Source of the DNA: Rhizobium sp. Q54
GTDB lineage: Bacteria > Pseudomonadota > Alphaproteobacteria > SMXS01
Length of the DNA stretch: 37,822 nucleotides
Direction of reading: 5' to 3'
Assembly: GCA_945907245.1 (NCBI GenBank)
Contig: CAMDTB010000031.1
Location: forward strand, 1 to 37,822
Positions 12,878 through 37,822 of this stretch are shown piece after piece. The translations under genes were made by a program, and so were the position numbers. Positions within the stretch are counted from its first letter, which is position 1. Each line of letters begins with the position of its first letter. Below the pieces are notes generated by a model. That model saw only the letters and a list, made by a program, of their open reading frames with translations, did no database searches and had not been told where the DNA came from.

Positions 12878-13711
12878 TTATTCACCCGAAATGAATTGCA
12901 TCCAGTTGTCCAGATCGCGCAGCCGTTCCTTCGGATCGAGCACGTCGGCATCGACTCCAAAGCGCCATCGATCGCCGGCGGTGCCGCCCTGGTCGAACGA
13001 GGCGAAGGTCTCGGCGGCGTCGCGCGCGGCCTGCTCGCTTTCGAACAGCCCATCCTGCACCAGGACGTCGGCGTAGCGGCGCATGGAGGCGGCGATCTCG
13101 CCGAAATTGTATTCCGGATGGTACTGAACGCCCCAGAATTCGCCGCCGTCCACATGGAACGCGGCCGCCTGGACGCGGGTCATGGAATTGTAGGCCAGGA
13201 CCTGGGCGTTCTCGGGCAGGGCCGTGACGATGTCCCGGTGGACGGCGATGGCGTCGAACACGGTCGGCCGGCCCGCGTAGAGCGGATGGGCGCGGCCGGC
13301 GTCGGTCAGCAGGATCTTGCGGGCGAGGCCGATTTCTCGGCCCAGCGGATTGCGAAGCACCGTGCCGCCCGCCGCCGCGACCCCTACCTGCAGGCCCCAG
13401 CAGCTGCCGAATTGGGGGACTCGGGAGGCGAAGCATGTGCGGCAGAAGGCGAGCTGGCGCTCGATCTCCGGCCCGCCATTGTAGATGTTGAGCGACGAGC
13501 CGGTCCAGGCGATGCCGTCATAGGCCTTCAGCGCCGCTTCGTCGGGCAGCACCGTGTCCGAATCCGCCGGGAACGCCACGTCGAGCGCCAGGTCGCCGCG
13601 GATACGGCGGAGCGAGTCGGCATAGAGCATGTTGGCCTCGCGTCCGCGTGCGGCGACGGCGCGCTGGCGGCCTTCGGCGGTGTTGCCTTCGACGATCAGG
13701 ATTTTGGGCAT
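12878..13711 (-). CDS. Class I glutamine amidotransferase, probable gamma-glutamyl amide hydrolase
   Basis: This 277-residue type 1 GATase domain protein has the full triad: nucleophile Cys104 in FGSCWGLQ, and His198 and Glu200 in QYHPEYN. There is no attached synthetase domain, and the neighbours are a glutamine-synthetase-like ligase, an alcohol dehydrogenase, an aldehyde dehydrogenase and a permease. It therefore most likely hydrolyses a gamma-glutamyl amide intermediate, releasing glutamate, as PuuD and IpuF do in putrescine and isopropylamine catabolism. The start is 2 bases after the alcohol-dehydrogenase stop, implying translational coupling. It is the last gene of the five-gene minus-strand cluster. 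Specificity is inferred from context. Confidence 0.85.
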   Translation of the reverse strand: MPKILIVEGNTAEGRQRAVAARGREANMLYADSLRRIRGDLALDVAFPADSDTVLPDEAALKAYDGIAWTGSSLNIYNGGPEIERQLAFCRTCFASRVPQFGSCWGLQVGVAAAGGTVLRNPLGREIGLARKILLTDAGRAHPLYAGRPTVFDAIAVHRDIVTALPENAQVLAYNSMTRVQAAAFHVDGGEFWGVQYHPEYNFGEIAASMRRYADVLVQDGLFESEQAARDAAETFASFDQGGTAGDRWRFGVDADVLDPKERLRDLDNWMQFISGE

Positions 13712-13713
13712 CG

Positions 13714-14892
13714 TTAAGCCGCGTCTTCGATCCTGCCGGAAACGGCGGCCCGGAAAATGCGCTCCAGCGCCGGCGCCTTCACCTCGATGGGGTTGCCGCC
13801 GGCCGACGGGTCGGCCTCGGCGAAGCGCCCGATCTCGCCGGCCCGGCTGTCGTTCACACCGATCTCGGCAAGGGTGTGCGGGATGCCGATATGCTCGCGC
13901 AGGTACAGCACATGGGCCAGCACCGCGTCGAAGCTGGGATGGGACAGAGCGAGCACGGCGGCGAGATGGCCCATCTTGCCTTCGATGGCGCGCCGGTTGT
14001 GCAGCATCACATAGGGCAGGACCACGGCGTTGGTCAGGCCGTGGTGGGTATCGTAGAGCGCGCCGACCGGGTGAGAGATGGCATGGACCGCGCCCAGCCC
14101 CTTCTGGAACGCGGCGGCGCCCATGGAGGCGGCGGTCAGCATCCGCGAGCGGGCGAGGATGTTCGATCCGTCGGCGACGGCGCGCGGCAGGTGCTCGACG
14201 ATCAGCCGCATGCCTTCCAGCGCGATGCCGTCGGCCATCGGATGAAAGCCCGGCGCGCAGAACGCCTCGAAGCAATGGGTGAAGGCGTCCATGCCGGTCG
14301 CAGCGGTGATGTGCGGCGGCAGCTTCACGGTCAGCGCCGGGTCCGAGATGACGATGCCCGGCAGCATTTTCGGGTGGAAGATGATCTTCTTCTCGTGGGC
14401 ATCCTCGTTGAGCACCACGGCGGCGCGGCCCACTTCCGAGCCGGTGCCGGCCGTCGTCGGCACCGCGACGATGGGGGCGATGCCGTTCGGGTCGGCGCGG
14501 GTCCACCAGTCGCCGACATCCTCGAAGTCCCAGATCGGCCTTGTCTGGCCGCTCATGAAGGCGATGGCCTTGCCCGCGTCGAGCGCCGAGCCGCCGCCGA
14601 AGGCGATCACGCCGTCATGGCCGCCTTGCCGGTAGAACGACACGCCGTCGTCGATGTTGGCGCCCACCGGGTTCGGCTTGATGTCGGCGAACGCGGCGGA
14701 CTCCAGCCCTTCCTGCTTCAGGCCCTCCAGCGCGGCCTGGGCGATGGGCGAGGGCAGCAGGCCCTTGTCGGTGACGAACAGTGGCCGGGTGATGCCCAGC
14801 GTCCGGCAGGCCTGCGCCAGCTCGCGGATGCGACCCGGGCCGTGCAGCACGCGTGTCGGGTAGTTCCAGTTGCCGGTAAGGATGTCGCTCAT
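13714..14892 (-). CDS. Iron-containing alcohol dehydrogenase
   Basis: This 392-residue group III alcohol dehydrogenase has the dinucleotide-binding GGGSALDAGKAIA loop at 99-111, PTTAGTGSEV at 145-154, and metal ligands Asp202, His206, His270 and His284, the last two in the GAVHAISHP and DTHHGL blocks. It should oxidise a primary alcohol with NAD(P)+. An alcohol dehydrogenase is not needed for the classical putrescine gamma-glutamylation pathway. Its presence between the amidase and aldehyde dehydrogenase therefore points to a hydroxyl-bearing amine such as ethanolamine or alaninol. It lies 24 bases downstream of the aldehyde-dehydrogenase gene. Confidence 0.93.
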   Translation of the reverse strand: MSDILTGNWNYPTRVLHGPGRIRELAQACRTLGITRPLFVTDKGLLPSPIAQAALEGLKQEGLESAAFADIKPNPVGANIDDGVSFYRQGGHDGVIAFGGGSALDAGKAIAFMSGQTRPIWDFEDVGDWWTRADPNGIAPIVAVPTTAGTGSEVGRAAVVLNEDAHEKKIIFHPKMLPGIVISDPALTVKLPPHITAATGMDAFTHCFEAFCAPGFHPMADGIALEGMRLIVEHLPRAVADGSNILARSRMLTAASMGAAAFQKGLGAVHAISHPVGALYDTHHGLTNAVVLPYVMLHNRRAIEGKMGHLAAVLALSHPSFDAVLAHVLYLREHIGIPHTLAEIGVNDSRAGEIGRFAEADPSAGGNPIEVKAPALERIFRAAVSGRIEDAA

Positions 14893-14916
14893 GCCAGGAA
14901 ATCGCTCATGCTGTCC

Positions 14917-16311
14917 TCAGCGCGTCCGGGTGCGCAGATGGAAGGATTTGGGCCGGGTCAGGTACTGGTAACCCAGCGCCGACAGGGTGCAGCCGCGGCC
15001 GCTGTCCTTGACGCCGGTCCAGGCCAGCGCCGGATCCAGATAGTCGCAGCGGTTCATGAACACCGTGCCGGTGTCGACCTGGCGCCCGATGCGTTCGGCG
15101 GCCTCGACGTCCTCGGTCCAGATGGCGGCGGTCAGGCCATAGGCGCTGTCGTTCATCATCCGCACCGCCTGCTCGTCCGAGCTGACCTTCATGATGCCGA
15201 CGGCCGGGCCGAAGGTCTCCTCGGTCATGATCCGCATGGAATGGTCCACATGGACCAGTATCTGGGGCGCGAGATAGGGCGTTCCAGGGGCGTCGGCGTG
15301 AAAATGCGCCGGGTTCAGCAGTGCCGAGGCGCCCTGTCGCACCGCCTCGTCGATCTGGCCGCGCACGAAGGTGGCGGCCGAGGCGCGCACCATGGGGCCG
15401 AGCGTGGTTTCGGGCTTCGTCGGATCGCCCAGGACGTATTTCCGCGTCAGCTCGAACGCGCCGGAGACGAAGTCGTCGAACAGGCTGTCATGAACATAGA
15501 TGCGCTCGATGCCGCAGCAGCTCTGCCCCGAATTGAACATGGCGCCGTCGACCAGGTTCTCGACGGCGTGGGCCAGATTGGCATCGGCCCGCACATAGGC
15601 CGGGTCCTTGCCGCCCAGCTCCAGCCCGGCGGCGGCGAACTTGCCGGCCAGCGCCCGCTGCACCGCGTGGCCGCCCTCGACCGAGCCGGTGAAGCAGACG
15701 CCGCCGATCCGCGCGTCCGCGATCAGCGCCGCCGTGTCGGCATGGCTCAGATGCAGATGGGCGAACACACCGCCCGGCAGGCCGGCGGCCTCGAACACCT
15801 GGGCGAAGCGCTCGGCGCACAGCGGCGTCTGGTGGGAATGCTTCAGGATCACCGCGTTGCCGGCGGCCAGCGCCGGGATCACCGCGTTCACCGCCGTCAG
15901 GTAGGGATAATTCCATGGCGCGACCACCGCGACCACGCCCAGCGGCTCGTGGGTGACGTAGCGCCTGAAGCCCTCCTTCGGTCCCGGATCGAGCGGCGCC
16001 AGCGCGTCCGCCGCCAGCGCGATCATGGTGCGCGCCCGGTCCTCGAAGCCGCGCACCTCGCCGGGCGTGTAGGCGATGGGCCGGCCCATCATCCAGGTCA
16101 GCTCGGTGGCGATCTCTGGCCCGTGCGCCACGAAGGCGTCGACCGCCTTGGACAGCAGGGCCTGCCGTTCGGGCAGCGGTGTCGTGCTCCATGCCCGCTG
16201 GCCGGTGACGGCCCGGTCCAGCGCCGCCTCGATGGCGGCCGCGTCCGCCAGCGGGCGCTCGACATAGATGCGCCCGTCGACCGGGCTCACGCAGTGCAGG
16301 ATCGCGGCCAT
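14917..16311 (-). CDS. Aldehyde dehydrogenase (NAD(P)+)
   Basis: The 464-residue protein belongs to the aldehyde dehydrogenase superfamily: PWNYP at 132-136 (substrate and cofactor channel), the general base Glu231 in ELGGK, and the catalytic Cys265 in GQSCCG. It should oxidise an aldehyde to the acid. Its ATG overlaps the stop codon of the upstream glutamine-synthetase-like gene by one base (TGATG), so the two are translationally coupled. In this cluster it would oxidise a gamma-glutamyl-amino-aldehyde, the role of PuuC in putrescine catabolism. The in-frame extension further upstream lies inside the ligase gene and is rejected. Confidence 0.93.
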   Translation of the reverse strand: MAAILHCVSPVDGRIYVERPLADAAAIEAALDRAVTGQRAWSTTPLPERQALLSKAVDAFVAHGPEIATELTWMMGRPIAYTPGEVRGFEDRARTMIALAADALAPLDPGPKEGFRRYVTHEPLGVVAVVAPWNYPYLTAVNAVIPALAAGNAVILKHSHQTPLCAERFAQVFEAAGLPGGVFAHLHLSHADTAALIADARIGGVCFTGSVEGGHAVQRALAGKFAAAGLELGGKDPAYVRADANLAHAVENLVDGAMFNSGQSCCGIERIYVHDSLFDDFVSGAFELTRKYVLGDPTKPETTLGPMVRASAATFVRGQIDEAVRQGASALLNPAHFHADAPGTPYLAPQILVHVDHSMRIMTEETFGPAVGIMKVSSDEQAVRMMNDSAYGLTAAIWTEDVEAAERIGRQVDTGTVFMNRCDYLDPALAWTGVKDSGRGCTLSALGYQYLTRPKSFHLRTRTR

Positions 16312-17678
16312 CAGATGATCTCGAAGTAGCGGGCCAATTCCCAGTCGGTGACCGCCTTGCGGAACTCGCGCTCCTCCCAGTCGCGAGTCGCGGCGTAGTG
16401 CTCGACGAAGGCGTCGCCGAACAGCTCGCGCGCCGCCTTCGACTTGTGCAGTCGCTCGGCCGCTTCCGACAGGGTGCGCGGCAGGCTGCGCGCCGCCGGA
16501 TGATCCATGGCATAGGCGTTGCCGGTGACGGGGTCGTCGGGCTCCACCTTGTTCTCGATGCCCCACAGTCCCGAGCCGATGGCGCAGGCCAGCGCGATGT
16601 AGGGATTGATGTCGGCGGCGGCGATCCGGTACTCGACCCGCTGCGCCTTCGCCGATCCGCCGATGATGCGCAGCGCACAGGTACGGTTCTCCACGCCCCA
16701 GGTCGCATGGGTCGGCGCCCAGAAGCCGGGGATCAGCCGCGTATAGGAATTGACGGTGCAGGCGACCATGGCCAGCAGTTCCGGCATCAGCTTCTGCTGG
16801 CCGCCGACGAACCAGCGCATCACGTCCGACATGCCGTGCGGATTTGCCGGATCGTGGAACGCGGGCTTGCCGTCCTTGCCGGTCAGCGACATGTGCAGAT
16901 GGCCGCTCTGGCCGGGCCAGTCGGGCGACCACTTGGCCATGAAGGTCGCCATCCAGCCGCGCTTCTGCGCCAGGATCTTGGTGAAGGTCTTGAACAGGGC
17001 GGCCTTGTCGGCGGCGGCGAGCGCCACGTCGTGGTTGATGGCCACTTCCAGCACGCCGGGCCCAGTTTCCGTGTGCATGCCTTCGAGCGGCATGTCCATG
17101 GCCGTGCACATGTCCAGCAGCTCCTTGTAGAAGTCGGCATGGACCGAGCTGCGCAGCATGGAATAGCCGAAATAGCCGGGCGTGATATTCTTGAGGCCTC
17201 GGTAATGCTTATCGCGCACCGAATGGGGCGTCTCGTCGAACACGAAGAACTCGAACTCGGCGGCGGCGCGCACGCCAAATCCCAGCCTGTTTGCGCGGCC
17301 CAGCACGTTGCGCAGCACGCCGCGCGGGCAGACGCCTTCGCCCTCGCCCGAAAACTCGCCCAGGAACAGCAGCATGTTCCCTTCCATGGGCACGGCGCGG
17401 CAGGAACTGGGAACGATGCGGACCATGGCGTCCGGATAGGCGGTGTGCCAGCCGGTGACCTTGACGTTGTCGTAGAGCTGGTCGTTCGAGTCCCAGCCCA
17501 GCACCACGTCGCAGAAACCGAAATCATGTTCGAGGGCGGAGTAGAACTTGTCCCTGGCCATGTACTTGCCGCGCATGATGCCGTCGATGTCGAACACGCC
17601 GACCTTGACGTAGTCCAGCCCCCGCTGCTCGACGATCGCCCTGGCGTCGTCGGCGGTCTTCACCTGTCTTGGATCCAT
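16311..17678 (-). CDS. Glutamine synthetase family ligase, probable gamma-glutamyl-amine synthetase
   Basis: A 455-residue glutamine-synthetase-fold enzyme. It has the short beta-grasp N-terminus of PuuA/GlnA-like ligases (FDIDGIMRGKY near residue 30), the AAEFEFFVFD metal-binding strand near 140, an HTETGPGVLEVA segment, SGHLHMSL, and a C-terminal NRTCALRI followed by EYRIAAADINPY. Genuine GlnA type I would be slightly longer, with an adenylylation-site Tyr loop that I do not see here. With aldehyde dehydrogenase, alcohol dehydrogenase, amidotransferase and an amine permease alongside, the likely reaction is ATP-dependent attachment of glutamate to an amine, probably ethanolamine. Streptomyces GlnA4 is the characterised precedent. 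Confidence 0.9.
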   Translation of the reverse strand: MDPRQVKTADDARAIVEQRGLDYVKVGVFDIDGIMRGKYMARDKFYSALEHDFGFCDVVLGWDSNDQLYDNVKVTGWHTAYPDAMVRIVPSSCRAVPMEGNMLLFLGEFSGEGEGVCPRGVLRNVLGRANRLGFGVRAAAEFEFFVFDETPHSVRDKHYRGLKNITPGYFGYSMLRSSVHADFYKELLDMCTAMDMPLEGMHTETGPGVLEVAINHDVALAAADKAALFKTFTKILAQKRGWMATFMAKWSPDWPGQSGHLHMSLTGKDGKPAFHDPANPHGMSDVMRWFVGGQQKLMPELLAMVACTVNSYTRLIPGFWAPTHATWGVENRTCALRIIGGSAKAQRVEYRIAAADINPYIALACAIGSGLWGIENKVEPDDPVTGNAYAMDHPAARSLPRTLSEAAERLHKSKAARELFGDAFVEHYAATRDWEEREFRKAVTDWELARYFEII

Positions 17679-17740
17679 GAGGTCCGCGTCTCGTCCCGGT
17701 TACAGCCTCGCGGTGTCCGCGCACCGCGACGCAAAGCCTA

Positions 17741-19237
17741 TCAGTCGCTTCTGCTCGACGCACCCTTGGTCATGGCGAATTCCTCCTCGGGCGACAGCAC
17801 CAGCCGGTGCCGCCCGAACACCGCGAAATAGAGGATCATGATCGCGTAATAGCAGGCGGTGGCGATCACCGGCGTCCGGAATGCCGGGTCGGTGACCTGG
17901 AAGTAGATGGTAACCAGGCCGATGATCATGGTCGCGGCCGCGCCGGGGATGCCGAACGGGCTGCGATAGGGCCGTTCGATATGCGGCATGTTGATGCGCA
18001 GCAGGATGAACGACATCGCCTGGTAGATGTAGGACAGCATGGCGCCGAACACCGCCATGTTAAGGAGGGTGGCGCCGATCAGCGTGCCGCTGTCCTCGGG
18101 ATAGAGGAACCAGATGATCAGCATTACCGCCAGCCCCGCCACGCTGCCGGCGAGCAATGCCGCATGGGGCGTCTTGTGCTTGCCGTGGGTGATCGACAGG
18201 CCCTTGGGAAGGTAGCCGGCGCGCGACAGCGAATAGATCTGGCGTCCGTAGGCGTACATGATGGCGTGGAAGCTGGCGATCAGGCCCAGGATGGCGGCAA
18301 GCGCCAGCAGGTTGGCGACGCTGGTGCCGTACATTGTCCGGAAGCCTTCGAGCAGCGGCTCGCCCGAGGTCTTCAGGCCCCATGAGCCCGGACCGATAGA
18401 GGCGTTGAAGAACAGCACGCCGAAGCCGGTCAGGATCAGGGTGAAGATGCCGAGCCGGATGCCCTTCGGCATGTCACGGCGCGGGTCCACCGATTCCTCG
18501 GAGGCGAGCGGCAACTGCTCGATGGCGAGGAAAAGCCAGACCGCGAAGGGCAGCGCGCCCAGGATGCCGTGGAAGCCGTCGGGGAACCAGGGCCCGCCGC
18601 CTTCCGGCAGCTCGACCAGCGCGCCATCGGGACCGACGCCGATGTTCATGGCCCAACGGTTGAAATCCACGTGCGGGATGGCGCTGATGAAGAAGATCGC
18701 CAGCACCGCGAGCGCCACCAGCGTCACGAACACGGTCACCCTGAACGACAGTTCGACGCCGAACAGGTTGAGGCCGAGGAATATGAGGTAACCGGCCAAC
18801 CAATAGAACGGCTGGTACATCGGCGGCGTCCCCAGGATCGCCTCCACATAGGTGCCGATGAAGAACACGATCACTGCAGGCGTCAGGATGTATTCGATGT
18901 TTTCGGCGATTCCGGTGACGAAGCCGCCCCACGGTCCCATCGCCGATCGGGCGAACGAGTAAGCGCCGCCGGTGTGCGGCAGGGCGGGCGACATCTCGGC
19001 GATGGAATAGGTCAGGCCGAGATACATAATGGCGATGATGATCGTGGCGACGAACATTGAACCCCAGCCGAATCCCAGGCCGAAGTTCCACCCCGAGAAA
19101 TCGCCCGAGATAACGGCGCCGACGCCCAGCGCCCACAGCGAGAACACGCCGGCATATCGCCGCAGGCCGCGCTTTTCGAAATACTCGCCGTCGACCGTAT
19201 TGTAGGAAACGCCCTGTGTGCCCTTGATCTCGCTCAT
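17741..19237 (-). CDS. APC superfamily permease, ethanolamine-permease-like
   Basis: This 498-residue protein has about 12 membrane helices. The N-terminal block GVGAVISGDFSGWNFGLGFG (from about residue 38) is characteristic of the ethanolamine permease branch of the amino acid-polyamine-organocation superfamily. SPALPHTGGAYSFARSAMGPWGG follows, as in that branch. It would bring an amine into the cytoplasm for the downstream ligase. The start at 19237 has GAGGA seven bases upstream. The leader region carries two direct GGGAGTC repeats one helical turn apart (19319-19325, 19330-19336) that could bind a regulator. It is the first gene of the five-gene minus-strand cluster, 62 bases before the ligase. 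Confidence 0.88.
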   Translation of the reverse strand: MSEIKGTQGVSYNTVDGEYFEKRGLRRYAGVFSLWALGVGAVISGDFSGWNFGLGFGWGSMFVATIIIAIMYLGLTYSIAEMSPALPHTGGAYSFARSAMGPWGGFVTGIAENIEYILTPAVIVFFIGTYVEAILGTPPMYQPFYWLAGYLIFLGLNLFGVELSFRVTVFVTLVALAVLAIFFISAIPHVDFNRWAMNIGVGPDGALVELPEGGGPWFPDGFHGILGALPFAVWLFLAIEQLPLASEESVDPRRDMPKGIRLGIFTLILTGFGVLFFNASIGPGSWGLKTSGEPLLEGFRTMYGTSVANLLALAAILGLIASFHAIMYAYGRQIYSLSRAGYLPKGLSITHGKHKTPHAALLAGSVAGLAVMLIIWFLYPEDSGTLIGATLLNMAVFGAMLSYIYQAMSFILLRINMPHIERPYRSPFGIPGAAATMIIGLVTIYFQVTDPAFRTPVIATACYYAIMILYFAVFGRHRLVLSPEEEFAMTKGASSRSD

Positions 19238-19727
19238 GAAACGGTCCTCTGTTTCGGACAGTCAAGCGGCTGGCCCTGCCCCGGCTCCTGTACGGAAAGG
19301 TTCACAGAGGTTGCCGGTGGGAGTCAACTGGGAGTCTATTTGCTTGACGCACGTTTTCGCATGGCATGGGCCAATAAATGCCCGGACAGGCTACGTGGAT
19401 ACTTCTATGTGATTAAATTGTGAGCAAGTGCCCTGCAAATAATCGTCGATCGTTTGGCACCTCAACACCTCGCGCCATTGCCCGATTAGGGTGGCGTCAT
19501 GCTCTTGTCGCCACCCTGACTTACGTCTTCGTCGGCATCAGTGCGCTGTCGGCGGTTACCCGCTGGTCGCCTGGATGTCGACGGGGCGCTTCATGTTCGG
19601 CGCAGTACTGCTGGCGTCGACCCTGCTCGCCGCCGACAAGCTTAGACTCGCACGGGCGTGACTCCGCGCACGCTTCATGGTTAGCTAGCGTACTGAATGA
19701 CCATGTTTGCCGAACGGGGAGACGACG
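19238..19727. other. 490-base intergenic region with hairpin and possible gene remnant
   Basis: No intact gene is visible here. The left part should hold the promoter of the permease cluster, including the direct GGGAGTC repeats. A relatively AT-rich stretch runs from 19400 to 19445. A perfect 9-bp inverted repeat (AGGGTGGCG 19488-19496, CGCCACCCT 19509-19517) follows. The right part contains coding-like fragments (separate entry) and the GGGGAG ribosome-binding site of the Rieske gene. Confidence 0.6.
19420..19661 (+). pseudogene. Possible remnant of a small membrane protein, frameshifted
   Basis: One plus-strand frame gives a helix-like HALVATLTYVFVGISALSAV (about 19497-19556). The next frame gives a second hydrophobic stretch, YPLVAWMSTGRFMFGAVLL, and a natural-looking end ADKLRLARA with a TGA stop at 19659-19661. 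Adding one base near 19558 would join them into one two-helix protein. The family is not recognised. It may equally be chance, since a hairpin overlaps the first part. Confidence 0.3.
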
Positions 19728-21128
19728 GTGAATAAGCAGGTTAAAGGCGGGCTGAAGCCCGGTGACGCGCGCAGCGTCGGACCCAGCGTACAGCAGATCA
19801 TCGACCGGGACGGCGACAACCCGCCCGAATGGTTCCACTCGGAAGAGTGGACGTACCAGGGCGACGAGAACCTGACCGTCGACCGCTACATCAGCCAGGA
19901 CTACCACAACCTGGAAATGGAGCGGATGTGGTCCCGCGTCTGGCAGATGGCGTGCCGCGAGGAGGAAATTCCCGAAGTCGGCGACAATGTCGTCTACGAC
20001 ATTGGCAGCTGGTCGTTCATCGTCGTCCGCTCGGACGACAACACCATCAAGGCGTTCAAGAACGCCTGCCTGCACCGCGGCACTCAGCTGCGCGCCGAGG
20101 ACGGCTCTGTCACCCAGTTTCGCTGCCCGTTCCACGGCTGGACCTGGAACCTCGACGGCTCGCTGAAGGAAATCCCCTGCAAGTGGGATTTCCCGCATGT
20201 GGACGAGGCCGAGTACAGCCTGCCGGAGGTGAAGGTCGCCACCTGGGGCGGCTTCGTGTTCATCAACATGGACAAGGACGCCATGCCGCTTGAGGAGTGG
20301 CTGGACGTGCTGCCGCAGCACTTCTCCACCTTCCCGCTGGAGCGCCGCTACATGACGGCCAATGTCCGGCGCATCATGCCGTGCAACTGGAAGGTGGCGC
20401 AGGAGGCGTTCATCGAATCCTATCACGTGGTCGAGGCGCATGCGCAGGCCATGCCGGTGACCGGCGACGCCAACACGCAATACGATCTCTACGGCGACCG
20501 CATCAGCCGGCTCTACACCCAGCCTGGTGTCACCAGTCCGCACCTGCCGGCGCTGTCGGAGCAGGAGATGGCGAACATGATGATGCAGTCGCCGCGTCTG
20601 AAGGAACGGGGCGGCGCGCTGCCGCTGAAGCCCGGCGAAACCGCGCGCAGCCGTTATGTACAGGCTCTGCGGAAGGACCTGGAGGACCGGTTCGGCGCCG
20701 ACCTGTCGGCGCTGTCGACCACGGAGATCCTCGACAACATCGAGTACTTCCTGTTCCCCAACTTCTTTCCCTGGTTCAATTTCAGCCTGCCGCTGGTCTA
20801 CCGCTTCCGGCCCAACGGCAACGACCCGAACAGCTCGATCATGGACGTGATGCTGCTGCATCCGGTGCCGGACGAGGGGCCGCGTCCCGATCCGGCGCCG
20901 CTGAAGACCCTGCGGCCTGACCAGTCCTTCACCGAGGCGCCCGAGCTGGACCAGATTTCAGCGATCTTCGAGCAGGACGTGTCCAACATGCCGCGCGTGC
21001 AGAAGGGCATGCACATGCTGGAAAAGGGCGTGACCCTGGGTAACTACCAGGAATCCCGCCTGCGCCACATGCACCGGCTGCTCGACCGTTACGTCGCCAC
21101 GCCACCGGGCAAGAAGCTGCGTAAGTAG
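19728..21128 (+). CDS. Rieske-type aromatic ring-hydroxylating oxygenase, alpha subunit
   Basis: The 466-residue protein has an N-terminal Rieske [2Fe-2S] domain with ligands Cys114, His116, Cys133 and His136 (CLHRGTQL and CPFHGWTW). A C-terminal catalytic domain follows, in which NWKVAQEAFIESYHVVEAHA supplies the two His ligands of the mononuclear iron. NIEYFLFPNFF follows further on. Members hydroxylate or demethylate aromatic, amine or other compounds. No small subunit, ferredoxin or reductase gene is adjacent, so partners must be elsewhere. The GTG at 19728 is preferred because GGGGAG lies 6 bases upstream; the TTG at 19707 lacks a site. A strong intrinsic terminator follows, marking a single-gene transcript. 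Confidence 0.93.
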   Translation: MNKQVKGGLKPGDARSVGPSVQQIIDRDGDNPPEWFHSEEWTYQGDENLTVDRYISQDYHNLEMERMWSRVWQMACREEEIPEVGDNVVYDIGSWSFIVVRSDDNTIKAFKNACLHRGTQLRAEDGSVTQFRCPFHGWTWNLDGSLKEIPCKWDFPHVDEAEYSLPEVKVATWGGFVFINMDKDAMPLEEWLDVLPQHFSTFPLERRYMTANVRRIMPCNWKVAQEAFIESYHVVEAHAQAMPVTGDANTQYDLYGDRISRLYTQPGVTSPHLPALSEQEMANMMMQSPRLKERGGALPLKPGETARSRYVQALRKDLEDRFGADLSALSTTEILDNIEYFLFPNFFPWFNFSLPLVYRFRPNGNDPNSSIMDVMLLHPVPDEGPRPDPAPLKTLRPDQSFTEAPELDQISAIFEQDVSNMPRVQKGMHMLEKGVTLGNYQESRLRHMHRLLDRYVATPPGKKLRK

Positions 21129-22995: not shown

Positions 22996-23361
22996 GTGGG
23001 CATGACGCCGTCTATCGCGGGTACCGGACGCTATCGCGGCTATTTCATCGGTACCTTCCATCTGAGCCATTTCTACCCGGACGACGGCGACGGATATTGG
23101 TGGGTCGAAGCCGATGATGCGACGTGGCCCCTCGTATGGGACCATGCGGTGGGCGATCCGCCCGTCGTCACCGTCTATATGGAGGTCGAAGGCGCCCTGC
23201 AGCCCAATGTGGCGAAGGAACTGACCAGCCCGGAAGGCGATCCGATCCGGATTCCGGCGCGCGGCGCCACCGCCACCAAGCTGGTCCTCAGGCAGATCCA
23301 GAGCATTCGGCCGGTGCCATCCGATGAATTCAATCAACTGGCGGGTGTCTCGGAGGACTGA
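22996..23361 (+). CDS. Uncharacterised soluble protein
   Basis: The 121-residue acidic protein is rich in aromatic residues in its first half (GYFIGTFHLSHFYPDDGDGY, then WWVEADD) and has no signal peptide or membrane helix. The family is not recognised. GTG 22996 has GGAG five bases upstream; ATG 23002, two codons later, has the same site at eleven bases. The 3' end overlaps the end of the convergent N-formylglutamate amidohydrolase gene by 28 bases. Confidence 0.6.
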   Translation: MGMTPSIAGTGRYRGYFIGTFHLSHFYPDDGDGYWWVEADDATWPLVWDHAVGDPPVVTVYMEVEGALQPNVAKELTSPEGDPIRIPARGATATKLVLRQIQSIRPVPSDEFNQLAGVSED

Positions 23362-24152
23362 CCTGGACCCGGTCGGCCGAGCCGCAGCGCCTGCGCTTCG
23401 ATCCGCCGGTAGGCGTCCGCCAGCTTCTCCGCCCAGACCGCCGCCGTCTCCGCCGTGCGGATGCCGTCCTGGCGGGTTTCGACCAGCACATGGGGAATGC
23501 CGTGCCGCTCGCCGTGGACCGGAATGGAATAGTCGCTCCAGGCGGCGACCGAATAGGGCTGGTTGTCGCCCACCACCGTGCCGTCTTCGCGCAACGCCGG
23601 GATCAGCAGACGGGCCAGGCGGTCGTCGCTGCCATAGGCGATGGCGATGCGCCACGGGCGCGGGCCGTCGTCTAGCTCCGGGGTGAAGCTGTGGATCGAC
23701 AGCAGCAGCGTCGGACGGCCGCCGCGCGCCTCCAGCATCGCCTCGATGGTATCATGATACGGCTGGTGCAGTTCGGCGATCCGCGCGGCCCGGTCCCCGG
23801 CGGAAACCGACTCATTTCCCGGCACCGTCACCCCGCCGCTGACCGGCGCGGTGAGCTGGGTGCTGTCCAGGGGCCGGTTGCAGTCGATCACCAGCCGCGA
23901 ATAGCCGCTCAGCACCAGTGGCGCGTCGAGCAGTTCCGAGAGCCGGCGCGCCATGCTCGCAGCACCCGGATCCCAGGCGATGTGCTCGGCGCGCTCGGCC
24001 TCGCTCAATCCAAGGGTGCCCAGCCTGCGCGGGATGAGGTTCGAGGCGTGGTCGCAGATCAGGAAGGCTGCGCTCTTGCCGTCCGGGTTGACGACCTCGA
24101 ACGCCGGCGGTTCGCCCGGCTGCAGCAGAGTCGTTTTCGATAAATCGTCCAA
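23334..24152 (-). CDS. N-formylglutamate amidohydrolase family protein
   Basis: The 272-residue protein matches the FGase/HutG-type amidohydrolase family: an early CDHASNLIPRRLG block with the metal-binding Asp-His, then YSRLVIDCNRPLD, LLLSIHSFTPELDG-like SIHSFTPEL, and a C-terminal VLVETRQDGI. The family hydrolyses N-formyl-glutamate or related amides, releasing glutamate, in histidine breakdown; no other hut genes are nearby. The start is TTG at 24152 with AGGAAGG just upstream, and no Met occurs in the first 60 residues. It diverges from the methionine aminopeptidase gene with about 100 bases between them. It converges with the unknown gene at 22996, overlapping by 28 bases at the 3' ends. 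Confidence 0.88.
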   Translation of the reverse strand: MDDLSKTTLLQPGEPPAFEVVNPDGKSAAFLICDHASNLIPRRLGTLGLSEAERAEHIAWDPGAASMARRLSELLDAPLVLSGYSRLVIDCNRPLDSTQLTAPVSGGVTVPGNESVSAGDRAARIAELHQPYHDTIEAMLEARGGRPTLLLSIHSFTPELDDGPRPWRIAIAYGSDDRLARLLIPALREDGTVVGDNQPYSVAAWSDYSIPVHGERHGIPHVLVETRQDGIRTAETAAVWAEKLADAYRRIEAQALRLGRPGPGQSSETPAS

Positions 24153-33680: not shown

Positions 33681-35051
33681 TCAGTCGTCCTTTGCCAGCC
33701 GGATTCCCGAGAACTGCCAACGGGCGTCGGGAGGGAAGAAATTGCGATAGGTCGCCCGAACATGACCGGCCGGCGTCGCGCAGCTGCCGCCGCGCAGCAC
33801 CATCTGGTTGCTCATGAACTTGCCGTTGTACTCGCCGATGGCGCCTTCGGCCGGTCTGTAACGCGGATAGGGCGCGTAGGCACTCATGGTCCACTCCCAG
33901 ACGCCGCCGAACATCCCGCGAGTTTTCCCGCAGGCGCGGGGTTCCAGGCAAGACAGGTCGAGCCAGTTGCCATCCACCGGAAGACCGCGGGCCGCGGTCT
34001 CCCATTCCGCCTCGGTCGGCAGCCGATGGCCGGCCCAAACCGCATAGGCGGCGGCTTCGTAATAGCTCACGTGACAGACGGGCTCGGCCGGATCGATCAG
34101 CTCGCGGCCGTGCAGGGTGTAGCGCGTCCAGGCGCCGTCGCGCTGTTCCCAGTACAGCGGCGCGCGCCAGCCCCGTTCGCCGACCATGGTCCAGCCTTCG
34201 GCCAGCCACAGCGCGGGGTCGCGGTAGCCGCCCGCTTCCATGAACGCCAGGTACTCGCCGTTCGTCACCGGCCGCGACGCCAGCGCGAACGGCTCCAGCT
34301 GATGGCGGTGGCGCGGTCCTTCGTTGTCGAAGCAGAACCCGTCGCCGGCGTGGCCGATCTCGCGCAGCCCGCCCGCGAAAGGGTGCCAGGCCAGGCCGGG
34401 AGCATCGTTGCCGCCGCGCTTGCGTACACCATAAGGAGCAGGATCGAGCGGGTTGAGCGACAGTACGTGCTTGATATCCGTGACCAGCAGTTCCTGGTGC
34501 TGCTGCTCGTGGTTGAGCCCGAGCTCGACCAGCGGAACGAGCGACGGGCCGGGCCGCTCCAGCAGCGAGGCCATGGCGGTGTCCACATAGGCCCGGTAGT
34601 CCAGCACCTCGTCGACGGTGGGGCGCGACAGCAAGCCGCGCTGGGGACGCGGGAAAGGCGACCCGATCTGCTGGTAGTATGAATTGAACAGGTGGTCATA
34701 GGCGTCGTTGAGCGGCCGGTAGCCGGGCAGGTGCGGCTTCAGCAGGAAGGTCTCGAAGAACCAGGTCGTGTGCGCCAGGTGCCATTTTGTCGGGCTGGTG
34801 TCCGGCATGCTCTGGATCACCTGATCCTCGGCCGCGAGTGGCGCGGCGAGTGCGATGGAGGTTCCCCGCACGCGCGCATACGCATCGCGCACGCCGTCGC
34901 GCGAGGAATGAAGGACCGGCTGGTTGGCTGACGCCGGCGGTGGCTGGGCGGTCACGGCAGTTCCCCTGCTGTCCGAAACCGGCGTGGGCTCCGGCAATGA
35001 GATCGATGAAACGTCTTGGGGCCGCCACAGGTTCCCCCCGATAACGGCCAT
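33681..35051 (-). CDS. egtB: Ergothioneine biosynthesis protein EgtB
   Basis: The 456-residue non-heme iron sulfoxide synthase joins hercynine to a thiol donor using O2. An N-terminal DinB-like domain carries the iron ligand motifs: HLAHTTWFFE (about 91-100) and HEQQHQE (181-187). A C-terminal formylglycine-generating-enzyme-type domain includes LPTEAEWE, GGVWEWT, and VLRGGSCATP followed by YRNFFPPDARWQFSGIRL. The first 45 residues are poorly conserved and Pro-rich. ATG 35051 has a weak GGGG site; ATG 35075 is an alternative. Which thiol donor is used cannot be read with confidence from sequence. Confidence 0.94.
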   Translation of the reverse strand: MAVIGGNLWRPQDVSSISLPEPTPVSDSRGTAVTAQPPPASANQPVLHSSRDGVRDAYARVRGTSIALAAPLAAEDQVIQSMPDTSPTKWHLAHTTWFFETFLLKPHLPGYRPLNDAYDHLFNSYYQQIGSPFPRPQRGLLSRPTVDEVLDYRAYVDTAMASLLERPGPSLVPLVELGLNHEQQHQELLVTDIKHVLSLNPLDPAPYGVRKRGGNDAPGLAWHPFAGGLREIGHAGDGFCFDNEGPRHRHQLEPFALASRPVTNGEYLAFMEAGGYRDPALWLAEGWTMVGERGWRAPLYWEQRDGAWTRYTLHGRELIDPAEPVCHVSYYEAAAYAVWAGHRLPTEAEWETAARGLPVDGNWLDLSCLEPRACGKTRGMFGGVWEWTMSAYAPYPRYRPAEGAIGEYNGKFMSNQMVLRGGSCATPAGHVRATYRNFFPPDARWQFSGIRLAKDD

Positions 35052-35075
35052 ACTTGCCCCTACTTCTTGCCTCAT

Positions 35076-36488
35076 ATGGACGCTTCGCGCACCCGGAACA
35101 AGGGCGGCGCGGCGTCGTTGTCGCTGGCGGGCACCGGCATTCAAGTTGGAGGGAGGGGCATCATCGAGGACTCCGCGGAGATTCAGGCTGCGCGCGGCGG
35201 CGCGAGAGGCCGTCCGGTTTATATCGTCGACGGCGCGCGAACGCCGTTCCTGAAGGTGCGCGGCAAGCCCGGGCCGTTCTCGCCCGTCGACCTCGCCGTG
35301 CAGTGCGGGCGGCCGCTGCTCGAGCGGCAGGATATCCCGCGCGAGGGCTTCGACAGGGTGGTCCTGGGCTGCGTCAACGTCATTGCCGACGAGATGAACC
35401 CGGCTCGGGTCGCGGCGCTTCGGCTCGGCATGGGCGCCGCGACCGTCGCCTACACCATGCAGATCAACTGCGGATCCGGCATGCAGTCCATCGACACCGC
35501 GTTCCGGACCATCCAGTCCGGGCACGCCGACCTGATCCTGGCTGGCGGCGCCGAATCGCTCAGCCACGCGCCGCTGGTGTTCCGGCGCGACGCGGCGGCC
35601 TGGTTCGGCAGCCTGATGTCGGCGCGGGGTCCAGGCGCGCGGCTGAAGGCGCTGGCCGGGTTCCGGCCCCGGTTCATGAAGCCGGAGACCGGACTGGAGC
35701 GCGGCCTCACCGATCCGGTCGTGGAGCTCAACATGGGCCAGACCGCTGAAATCATCGCCCACCTGTTCCAGGTCTCGCGCGACGCCTCCGACGCCTACGC
35801 CGCGGAAAGCCACCGCCGGCTGGCGCTCGCCCAGGCCGGCGGCTGGCTTGACGGCGAGATCGAGCCGGCGATGACACGTGACGGCGCCGCATTCGTGGCC
35901 GACGACGGCGTCCGGCCCGACAGCACGCCCGAGAAGCTGGCGACGTTGAAGCCGGTTTTCGAGCCGCCCTGGGGCAAGGTCACGGCGGGAAATTCCTCGC
36001 AGATCACCGACGGCGCGTCCTGGGTGATCCTGGCGTCCGAGGAGGCACTGGAGAAGCACAGGCTGAAGCCGCGCGCGGTCATCATCGACAGCCACTGGTC
36101 GGCGCTCGACCCATCGATCATGGGCCTGGGCCCGACGCTGTGCGCCACCGAGATGATGAAGCGTCACGATATGGGCATGGCCGACATCGACCTGTGGGAG
36201 CTGAACGAGGCGTTTGCCGCCCAGGTGCTGGCGTGTCTCGCGGCGTGGAATGACGCCGACTATTGCGAGACGGTGCTCGGCCTCGACGGCAGGCTGGGCC
36301 GGATCGAGCGCGACCGCCTCAACCCGGACGGCGGCGCCATCAGCCTCGGCCATCCCGTCGGCGCCAGCGGCAACCGGATCGTGCTGCACCTGGTGAACGC
36401 GCTGCACCGGATGGACCTGCACCGAGGCATCGCCACCGAATGCATCGGCGGCGGGCAGGGCGGCGCCATGATGATCGAGAGGATCTGA
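35076..36488 (+). CDS. Acetyl-CoA C-acyltransferase (thiolase), FadI/FadA-like
   Basis: This thiolase, about 440-470 residues depending on the start, should perform the last step of beta-oxidation. It has the nucleophile Cys in INCGSGMQS, NEAFAAQVL, ISLGHPVGASGNR with the catalytic His, and CIGGGQGGAM with the second catalytic Cys. ATG 35076 is the only ATG in frame before the conserved RPVYIVDGARTPF and is given here. It would leave just 24 bases between it and the divergent egtB start, and adds an unconserved leader. A strong GGAGGGAGGGG at 35148-35158 lies seven bases before an in-frame ATC (35160), so true initiation may be there. It is followed after 2 bases by a fadJ-type gene. Confidence 0.88.
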   Translation: MDASRTRNKGGAASLSLAGTGIQVGGRGIIEDSAEIQAARGGARGRPVYIVDGARTPFLKVRGKPGPFSPVDLAVQCGRPLLERQDIPREGFDRVVLGCVNVIADEMNPARVAALRLGMGAATVAYTMQINCGSGMQSIDTAFRTIQSGHADLILAGGAESLSHAPLVFRRDAAAWFGSLMSARGPGARLKALAGFRPRFMKPETGLERGLTDPVVELNMGQTAEIIAHLFQVSRDASDAYAAESHRRLALAQAGGWLDGEIEPAMTRDGAAFVADDGVRPDSTPEKLATLKPVFEPPWGKVTAGNSSQITDGASWVILASEEALEKHRLKPRAVIIDSHWSALDPSIMGLGPTLCATEMMKRHDMGMADIDLWELNEAFAAQVLACLAAWNDADYCETVLGLDGRLGRIERDRLNPDGGAISLGHPVGASGNRIVLHLVNALHRMDLHRGIATECIGGGQGGAMMIERI

Positions 36489-36490
36489 CC

Positions 36491-37822
36491 ATGCGTCCGC
36501 TATCGAAGACCGTGCTGGCGGCGCTGGAGCCTCGCGAACTCGAGCTGGGGCTCGACATGGCATCGAGCCACATGTTGCGCCACTGGCGCTATGGACGCGA
36601 CGCGCAAGGCGTTGCCTGGCTGCTGTTCGACAAGATGGGCGCGTCGGTCAACACCATCGACGAGGAGGTGCTGAACGAACTGGCCGATGTCCTGCGTCGC
36701 CTGCTGCCGGACAATCCCGCCGGGATCGTCATCCGTTCGGCCAAGCGCGCCGGGTTCTGCGCCGGCGCCGACGTCAGCCGGTTCGCCGGCCAGATCGACC
36801 CGAGCGAGGCCGAACGCCAGCTGCTGCAGGGTCACATGGTGCTCGACGCCATATCCGAGCTGGCCATACCGACCGTGGCCGTGATTCACGGGCATTGCCT
36901 GGGCGGCGGTCTGGAACTGGCTCTGGCCTGCCGCACCCGCATCGCCGTCGATGGCGCCACATTCGTCTTCCCGGAGGTACTGCTCGGCCTCCATCCCGGC
37001 CTCGGCGGCACGGTGCGGTCGGTGGGGTTGATCCCGCCGGTCGAGGCCATGAGCATGATGCTGACCGGCAAGACCGTCCATGCCGCGCGCGCCAGGGCGA
37101 TCGGGCTGGTCGACGTCCTGACCCAGGAGCGGCACGTCGCCGCCGCCGTCGGCGATGCCGTCGCGGGCCGCATCAAGCGGCCGCAGCCGAGCCTGCGCGC
37201 CAAGGTCGAGCGGTTGCGGGCGCTGCGCGGCTTTCTCGCCAACCGGATGCGGGCGCAGGCGCGCAAGCGGGCGCCGGAAGAGCACTATCCGGCGCCCTAC
37301 GCGATGATCGACCTGTGGGAGACCTTCTCCGACCGGCCGGCCGCCATGCGCAACGAGGAGATCAGGAGCTTCGCCGGCCTGCTGGCGAGCCGCACGGCGC
37401 AGAGTCTGATCCGGGTGTTCTTCCTGCGCGAGACCCTGCGCAGGATGGGGGAATCGGGCAAGCCGATGACCCATGTCCATGTCGTCGGCGCTGGCGCCAT
37501 GGGCGGCGACATCGCCGCCTGGTGCGCGCTGAAGGGCCTGCGCGTCACCCTGTCGGACCAGAAGGCCGAGGCGATCGGCGCCGCCATGCGCCGCGCCGCC
37601 GATCTCTTCGCCAGGCGGCACCTCAACGGCATCCAGATCCGCGACGCGCTCGACCGGCTGATCCCCGATCCGGACGGCCGCGGCGTCGGCAAGGCCGATC
37701 TGGTGATCGAGGCGGTGCCCGAGCGGCTGGAGCTGAAGAAGGCGCTGTACGAGAGCATCGAGCCCCGCATGAAGCCGTCCGCCTTGCTGGCCACCAACAC
37801 CTCCAGCATCCCGCTGCGGGAC
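36491..37822 (+). CDS. Fatty acid oxidation multifunctional enzyme (crotonase + 3-hydroxyacyl-CoA dehydrogenase), 3' end cut
   Basis: The frame stays open from ATG 36491 to the window edge (444 codons), so the gene continues outside. An N-terminal crotonase domain (about 20-210) shows the oxyanion-hole GFCAGADVS, HGHCLGGGLELALACR with the first catalytic Glu, and FPEVLLGLHPGLGG with the second. A 3-hydroxyacyl-CoA dehydrogenase Rossmann fold starts near residue 329 (VHVVGAGAMGGDIA), followed by DLVIEAVPERLELKK and the LATNTSS strand. It would hydrate enoyl-CoA and oxidise the hydroxyacyl-CoA, passing the product to the thiolase encoded 2 bases upstream. Together they are a FadI-FadJ-like pair. 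Confidence 0.92.
   Translation, partial: MRPLSKTVLAALEPRELELGLDMASSHMLRHWRYGRDAQGVAWLLFDKMGASVNTIDEEVLNELADVLRRLLPDNPAGIVIRSAKRAGFCAGADVSRFAGQIDPSEAERQLLQGHMVLDAISELAIPTVAVIHGHCLGGGLELALACRTRIAVDGATFVFPEVLLGLHPGLGGTVRSVGLIPPVEAMSMMLTGKTVHAARARAIGLVDVLTQERHVAAAVGDAVAGRIKRPQPSLRAKVERLRALRGFLANRMRAQARKRAPEEHYPAPYAMIDLWETFSDRPAAMRNEEIRSFAGLLASRTAQSLIRVFFLRETLRRMGESGKPMTHVHVVGAGAMGGDIAAWCALKGLRVTLSDQKAEAIGAAMRRAADLFARRHLNGIQIRDALDRLIPDPDGRGVGKADLVIEAVPERLELKKALYESIEPRMKPSALLATNTSSIPLRD

Follow-up and report, generated by a model that had tools for sequence, protein, structure and literature searches.

A five-gene operon on the minus strand of a contig of Rhizobium sp. Q54 (CAMDTB010000031.1, positions 1 to 37,822; this whole stretch of 37,822 nucleotides is referred to hereafter as the window) was analysed, and a comparison of its genes with those of related loci indicates, with a probability of roughly 80%, an ethanolamine-catabolic pathway that would proceed by gamma-glutamylation. 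The operon (12878-19237) comprises genes for an APC-family permease, the proposed ethanolamine importer and first gene (17741-19237, 498 amino acids (aa)); a glutamine synthetase (GS)-like ligase, proposed to be a gamma-glutamylethanolamide synthetase (16311-17678, 455 aa; PF00120, 336 bits); an aldehyde dehydrogenase (ALDH) predicted to convert the gamma-glutamylated aldehyde into gamma-glutamylglycine (14917-16311, 464 aa; PF00171, 398 bits); an iron-type alcohol dehydrogenase (Fe-ADH) that would act as gamma-glutamylethanolamide dehydrogenase (13714-14892, 392 aa; PF00465, 160 bits, and PF25137, 140 bits); and a class I glutamine amidotransferase-like protein (GATase) without synthetase domain, a putative gamma-glutamylglycine hydrolase (12878-13711, 277 aa; PF00117, 58 bits). 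The five adjacent genes delimited in the initial annotation are real and intact at these coordinates, and their families were borne out by Pfam and NCBIfam. The tight junctions that it had described were both found, namely a 1-base overlap between the stop of the ligase gene and the start of the ALDH gene and a 2-base gap between the Fe-ADH and GATase genes; gaps of 24 bases between ALDH and Fe-ADH and of 62 bases between permease and ligase complete the arrangement. Promoter- and terminator-like sites at the operon were no more frequent than in shuffled sequence.

In the proposed pathway, the permease would import ethanolamine, as its neighbours suggest, and the ligase would couple the amine of ethanolamine to the gamma-carboxylate of glutamate with consumption of ATP, yielding gamma-glutamylethanolamide. 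The Fe-ADH would convert the hydroxyl into an aldehyde, and the ALDH the aldehyde into gamma-glutamylglycine, roles suggested by enzyme families that are common to the published operon. Finally, the amidotransferase-like hydrolase, alone or with an enzyme of family PF05013, would release glycine and glutamate. The glutamyl group would be a carrier, with the amine blocked while the oxidations proceed. The reactions, the substrate, the transport, the order of the two oxidations and the identity of the last-acting hydrolase are all inferred.

The best evidence for the ethanolamine reading is the gene neighbourhood of the ligase clade. The clade of the window's ligase is named here type A, and that of the C. 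salexigens-type ligase, type B. A sample of 80 out of at least 581 confirmed type-A loci from a scan of genome contigs was examined, and importers and hydrolases were tallied in the 58 loci with at least 3.5 kb on both sides, counting matches anywhere, on either strand, up to 10 kb on each side. An ethanolamine-type importer was found in 28 of these 58 loci, belonging to the clade of the window's permease in 17 (including the same-genus loci L051 and L053), EtoX alone in 7, an Azospirillum-type Eat in 2, Eat in 1, and Eat together with EtoX in 1. The ligases of relatives adjoin ethanolamine importers of four lineages: the window's clade, two Eat lineages and the TRAP system EtoVWX. The structure of the binding protein of this system, EtoX (Csal_0678, PDB 4UAB), was obtained with bound ethanolamine (PMC12410723). 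EtoX proteins at type-A loci are 60-77% identical to 4UAB, and the ligand residue Glu220 (chain position 217, equated with native 220 from an offset of three) is kept in all 31 loci checked, 26 of them type A (L164 and L176 being one genome). Among 121 halomonad-family genomes, drawn evenly from a larger group, EtoX was present in 26, and the adjoining ligase was type A in 18 and type B in 8. For one of the 18, L140, the ligase came into view only with the longer stretch L182, in which a permease intervenes, and L141, L149 and L160 hold a partial ligase only. The type-A ligase occupies the same slot of the same operon as type B. As for Eat, an Eat encoded next to eutBC in a P. aeruginosa record shares 62-67% identity with the permeases of the type-A operons of Photobacterium GJ3, L123 and L114, and the corresponding Eat of Azospirillum lipoferum, also next to eutBC, shares 77-79% with the permeases of L104, L124 and L128.

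The window's own permease scored 353.1 bits with TIGR00908, the model named ethanolamine permease, for which the cut-off is 381.75 bits. It is the best TIGR00908 match of the genome (the next reaching 124 bits), but the name is a near miss. Outside the genus, homologues of 54-73% identity lie directly before type-A ligases, and in a tree rooted on one very distant carrier the permease clade joined the P. aeruginosa and Vibrio Eats with support of 94/94, apart from Azospirillum-type Eats and the outgroup. The clade is tied to ethanolamine most directly by locus L273 of another alphaproteobacterium (G048:C1:3996000-4010000), which carries genes for RpiR, a PF05013 protein, a permease of the window's clade (54% identity), a type-B ligase, ALDH and Fe-ADH. 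This order is that of the operon of the C. salexigens-type genome G173, and the permease stands where EtoVWX would be. No EtoX was found in the genome at E <= 1e-100, nor any EtoV, EtoW or EtoX homologue in the window at E 1e-5.

These neighbourhoods also bear on the possibility that the chemistry is the same and the substrate another amino alcohol, with ligase and dehydrogenases acting mainly on alaninol, serinol or 3-aminopropanol, or on several of them. It would fit the position of the window's permease in a clade of its own, 37-40% identical to the Eats beside eutBC, as well as the Ipu route, which passes via alaninol. Moreover, the wider ligase clade includes loci in which no Fe-ADH is annotated nearby: on plasmids of Rhodobacteraceae bacterium M382 (L130), Rhizobium leguminosarum (L131) and Burkholderia vietnamiensis (L132), a ligase of about 55% identity is followed by an ALDH, and an aminotransferase, a GMC oxidoreductase or a Na+/solute symporter is encoded in the vicinity, so that the substrate there may be another amine or amino alcohol. 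However, the same ligase clade occurs elsewhere with EtoVWX and with eutBC-type Eat permeases, and the window's permease clade replaces EtoVWX in the C. salexigens-type operon of L273, which makes another main substrate rather unlikely.

The ligase itself differs from known GS-type enzymes. All 26 type-A rows came together in one clade (100/100) when 48 GS proteins were placed in a tree, apart from GlnA, PuuA, IpuC and type B, with long branches that leave the deep branching order unsure. Fourteen positions of E. coli GlnA were compared over the window's ligase, 22 core type-A rows and 13 type-B rows, and 10 of them were identical throughout; Asn264 corresponds to Pro255 in the window's ligase. 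At the ammonium site, Tyr179 is replaced by Phe170 in the window's ligase (among the 22 type-A rows, 18 have Phe here, 3 have Met and 1 has Tyr), and Glu327 by Trp320, a Trp present in all 22 core type-A rows and in IpuC, and a Phe in all 13 type-B rows. A Phe at the Glu327 position has been reported for Streptomyces GlnA4, and a Trp for PauA7 (PMC6529630). Ordinary nitrogen metabolism, in which the ligase would be an extra glutamine synthetase and the dehydrogenase genes unrelated neighbours, could account for the matches to PF00120 and to TIGR00653 (GlnA) and for the Asp conserved in the Asp50 column. Nevertheless, the TIGR00653 score is 230 bits against a cut-off of 429, Glu327 and Tyr179 are substituted as described, and ligase, ALDH and Fe-ADH occur together in 49 of the 65 sampled loci that have at least 3 kb downstream. 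In addition, the genome encodes two GS-type proteins, the type-A ligase and, on another contig, a GlnA proper (627 bits against the same cut-off). We therefore consider this explanation extremely unlikely; the ordinary glutamine synthetase as a candidate function was rejected on the ammonium-site residues, the model score and the separate GlnA.

Genome G173 was used as the reference for type B. Its EtoX is identical to 4UAB across 319 residues, and the ligase after it scores 1024 bits against 5dm3, with a few differences visible by eye, which identifies G173 as C. salexigens or a near relative; PDB entry 5dm3 is the C. salexigens (type-B) enzyme. The window's ligase is 31% identical to that of G173 and the two fall in separate clades of the tree, by which orthology was ruled out: as judged by these comparisons, the window's ligase is not the orthologue of the C. 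salexigens enzyme. Contigs of metagenome-assembled genomes labelled Candidatus Kuenenia (L051) and Candidatus Marinimicrobia (L058), labels that are possibly wrong, encode ligases 92% and 76% identical to the window's. On a plasmid of Thermomicrobium roseum (L264), the genes for a GS-like ligase with 50% identity to type B, an enzyme annotated as glucose 1-dehydrogenase and a permease sharing 47% identity with that of the window stand in a row, an arrangement that is Streptomyces-like in another phylum.

The dehydrogenases, in contrast, are of families found in the C. salexigens-type operon. The ALDH, which contains the catalytic motifs SGQSC and ELGGK, is 52% identical to the ALDH of the C. 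salexigens-type operon L176, and the Fe-ADH is 56% identical to its counterpart there. Trees were built for the ALDHs on 89 rows (type-A operons 73, type-B operons 16) and for the Fe-ADHs on 89 rows as well (72 and 17, respectively) by a quick method with the Shimodaira-Hasegawa-like approximate likelihood ratio test (SH-aLRT) only, a midpoint root and no outgroup, on rows with at least 48% identity to the window; 29 of 140 loci without a typed ligase and rows below 48% identity or 90% length are left out. In each tree the operon-type label changes three times, at least two of the changes being forced by starred branches, and types A and B are not cleanly separated. The ALDH and the Fe-ADH of L231 and the Fe-ADH of L239 were placed among type-A rows. 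On the midpoint root, a branch of 37 rows (98*) takes in 14 type-B ALDHs together with 22 type-A ones, a nesting that is not proven without an outgroup. Both operon types use, as far as sequence similarity indicates, the same ALDH and Fe-ADH families, and the simplest reading is therefore that the chemistry after the ligase would be the same.

A comparison of gene order in relatives, which had been suggested earlier, revealed the same five-gene order in the own genome and in all 6 same-genus genomes searched (in G004 the last gene runs off the contig end), and this conserved order is not chance. A close match of the ligase was absent from all 3 genomes searched from other genera of the same family. 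Within a set of 96 genomes, the own included, a ligase with 59% identity or more is encoded in 20, and the match ranking after these has 47% identity over part of the protein. The suggested check for eutBC returned no match to either eutB or eutC in the own genome, which is 98% complete, and the E. coli control was positive; this fits a route without ammonia-lyase, and the Eut route was ruled out. The earlier proposal of gamma-glutamylation with ethanolamine as the likely substrate is thus supported by the EtoVWX and eutBC-type Eat importers beside the same ligase clade, by the shared dehydrogenase families and by the absence of eutB and eutC.

Several observations weigh against this interpretation. 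No biochemistry was found for any type-A ligase, and its ammonium site is partly kept, as the Asp50 column is still Asp and one of the 22 core type-A rows retains a Tyr at position 179. The permease scores below the TIGR00908 cut-off, and in 30 of the 58 type-A loci none of the importer kinds looked for was found. The plasmid-borne ligases of about 55% identity in Rhizobium, Burkholderia and Rhodobacteraceae lack an annotated Fe-ADH in their surroundings, and the wider clade may therefore have other substrates. Members of the permease clade were seen without a nearby ligase in Phyllobacterium, Rhizobium sullae, a P. aeruginosa plasmid and Agrobacterium leguminum; 4 of 6 plasmid records with permeases of 51-68% identity were looked at, and none had a ligase within 5-6 kb. 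Out of 40 alphaproteobacterial EtoX loci read (from the 46 genomes with EtoX among 385, some stretches ending at contig ends), type A was nearby in 1, type B in 10 and neither in 29, the GS-like proteins of L253 (31%) and L220 (28%) being counted as neither; on this count EtoX was dropped as a constant marker of the operon. Finally, 14 of the 16 type-B ALDHs and 15 of the 17 type-B Fe-ADHs, those of G173 included, fall on a branch of their own in the trees without outgroup.

The last step of the proposed pathway allows two candidates. The amidotransferase-like protein encoded in the operon contains the motifs GSCWGLQ and YHPEY. A PF05013 (N-formylglutamate amidohydrolase-like) protein is encoded about 4 kb outside the operon (23334-24152, minus strand; PF05013, 144 bits) and is a candidate alternative or additional gamma-glutamylglycine amidohydrolase; it scored 20 bits with the HutG model (cut-off 279), and a second, higher-scoring PF05013 protein is encoded elsewhere in the genome. 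The last step, assigned to the amidotransferase, may instead, or also, be carried out by the PF05013 enzyme, and the span of 12878-19237 given earlier, correct for the five-gene operon, left out this possible pathway member. Within the 58 type-A loci, a class I GATase was found in 20, a PF05013 protein in 15, both in none and neither in 23. That the two never occur together is the pattern expected of equivalents (hypergeometric probability 0.0005 if the loci are assumed to be independent; they are related, and kinship is uncorrected). The window and its relative L032, both outside this tally, hold a GATase in the operon and a PF05013 protein as well.

A stronger version, compatible with the ethanolamine operon, would make the PF05013 protein the true gamma-glutamylglycine amidohydrolase and leave the amidotransferase-like protein an accessory function or a different one. 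The sets tabulated for C. salexigens and S. coelicolor have a hydrolase of this family, PF05013 (PMC9397018, Table 2), and the window's copy shares 49% identity with the protein encoded immediately ahead of the type-A ligase in Denitrobaculum (L056) and 37.5% with that of L176/G173. Yet it lies outside the operon, it is near the operon in just one of the five other same-genus loci for which 6.6 kb or more could be read upstream (L032-L036), and the alternation of the two families is as equivalents would show, so that we regard an exclusive role as possible but doubtful.

A polyamine or isopropylamine route of the Puu or Ipu kind was also weighed. The ligase belongs to the same GS superfamily as PuuA and IpuC, with 38.5% identity to the latter, the predicted hydrolase has the GATase fold, and some 3 kb downstream, on the strand of the operon, there is a P450 gene accompanied by a ferredoxin-like reading frame, comparable to the P450 and ferredoxin genes next to ipuC in Paenarthrobacter. 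However, other genes separate the P450 from the operon, and just one of five other same-genus loci (L033) has it in that position, on account of which an Ipu-like role for it was discarded as not consistently linked to the operon. Furthermore, an amine oxidase domain is absent from the operon, PuuA and IpuC fall outside the type-A clade, and the importers beside relatives are of the ethanolamine type. A route of this kind is consequently very unlikely, and the contrast with Puu drawn in the initial annotation stands, with an Fe-ADH and no amine oxidase domain in the operon and a ligase far under the PuuA-type cut-off (NF045547, 190 against 650 bits).

Other genes of the window were recorded. 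The P450 (8764-10014, minus strand; PF00067, 96 bits) is followed by the short ferredoxin-like frame, recognized by eye, and in L036 a P450 of 40% identity lies upstream instead of downstream. A Rieske ring-hydroxylating oxygenase gene (19707-21128, plus strand), whose top NCBIfam model is the glycine betaine monooxygenase GbcA (121 bits against a cut-off of 670), is divergent from the operon; three of five other same-genus loci (L032, L033 and L034) likewise have it on the upstream side. There is no reason for counting either the Rieske oxygenase or the P450 in the pathway. At 33681-36563 (minus strand), the last 400 residues of a 960-aa open reading frame score above the cut-off for the ergothioneine enzyme EgtB (TIGR03440, 567 against 360 bits), and its first 550 residues have no confident Pfam or NCBIfam match.

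As to its wider meaning, type A is probably a second gamma-glutamylethanolamide synthetase clade in many Alpha- and Gammaproteobacteria, and the same dehydrogenase families would be coupled with ligases of two clades, importers of four or more lineages and hydrolases of two unrelated families, as in a pathway of exchangeable parts. Ethanolamine derived from membrane lipids commonly serves as a nitrogen source, and its users are usually recognized by eutBC; the type-A clade, annotated only as glutamine synthetase, would mark further ethanolamine users without B12 or microcompartment. A type-A or type-B ligase with Fe-ADH and ALDH could accordingly be annotated as amino-alcohol gamma-glutamylation and not as extra glutamine synthesis.

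The pathway itself is already known in other bacteria. Streptomyces GlnA4 is a gamma-glutamylethanolamide synthetase, for which subsequent dehydrogenase, aldehyde dehydrogenase and amidohydrolase steps were proposed (PMC6529630). An ethanolamine gamma-glutamylation operon of the alphaproteobacterium Phaeobacter MED193 was published in 2023, with C. salexigens and Agrobacterium C58 also cited (PMC10132767), and an operonic alphaproteobacterial version is consequently not new, contrary to what had been supposed. Compared with the short eut operon (eutBC with Eat), the window's operon shares an Eat-related permease and differs from the ammonia-lyase route, eutB and eutC being absent. E. coli Puu has the gamma-glutamylation logic in common, with ligase, aldehyde dehydrogenase and hydrolase, whereas the window has an alcohol dehydrogenase in place of the oxidase PuuB, and the ligases belong to different clades. 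The Ipu system (ipuC of Paenarthrobacter aurescens TC1) is alike in having a GS-like ligase that acts on a monoamine and amidotransferase genes nearby, and unlike in the P450 and ferredoxin genes beside ipuC, which fit hydroxylation of a substrate that lacks a hydroxyl. The S. coelicolor GlnA4 cluster (SCO1610-SCO1615) resembles the operon in its ligase, two dehydrogenases, hydrolase and, in some species, permease (PMC6529630), but contains a short-chain dehydrogenase where the window has the Fe-ADH. In Embleya (Streptomycetaceae), the ligase that adjoins an Eat-like permease stands closer to type B (45%) than to type A (35%), GlnA4 itself being outside this comparison.

The closest likeness is to the operons of C. 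salexigens (Csal_0678 region) and Phaeobacter MED193 (MED193_10021-10056), which bring together a GS-like ligase, ALDH, Fe-dehydrogenase, hydrolase and ethanolamine importer (PMC10132767, PMC9397018); by Pfam, the C. salexigens set is PF00120, PF00465, PF00171 and PF05013 (PMC9397018). Genome G173, of the C. salexigens type, encodes an ALDH and an Fe-ADH of the window's families. In contrast, the window has a ligase of another clade (a comparison made with G173, not with the MED193 ligase), an APC permease for EtoVWX and, in the operon, a class I GATase for PF05013, and no RpiR homologue was found in the window at E 1e-5. No paper was found on an operon with this ligase clade, in word searches that cannot test sequence clades. 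Because its ligase is 31% identical and in a separate clade, the operon is filed as a variant and not as an orthologous copy, and what is new is this variant: a type-A ligase clade, without described biochemistry, that occurs with exchangeable importers and final enzymes.

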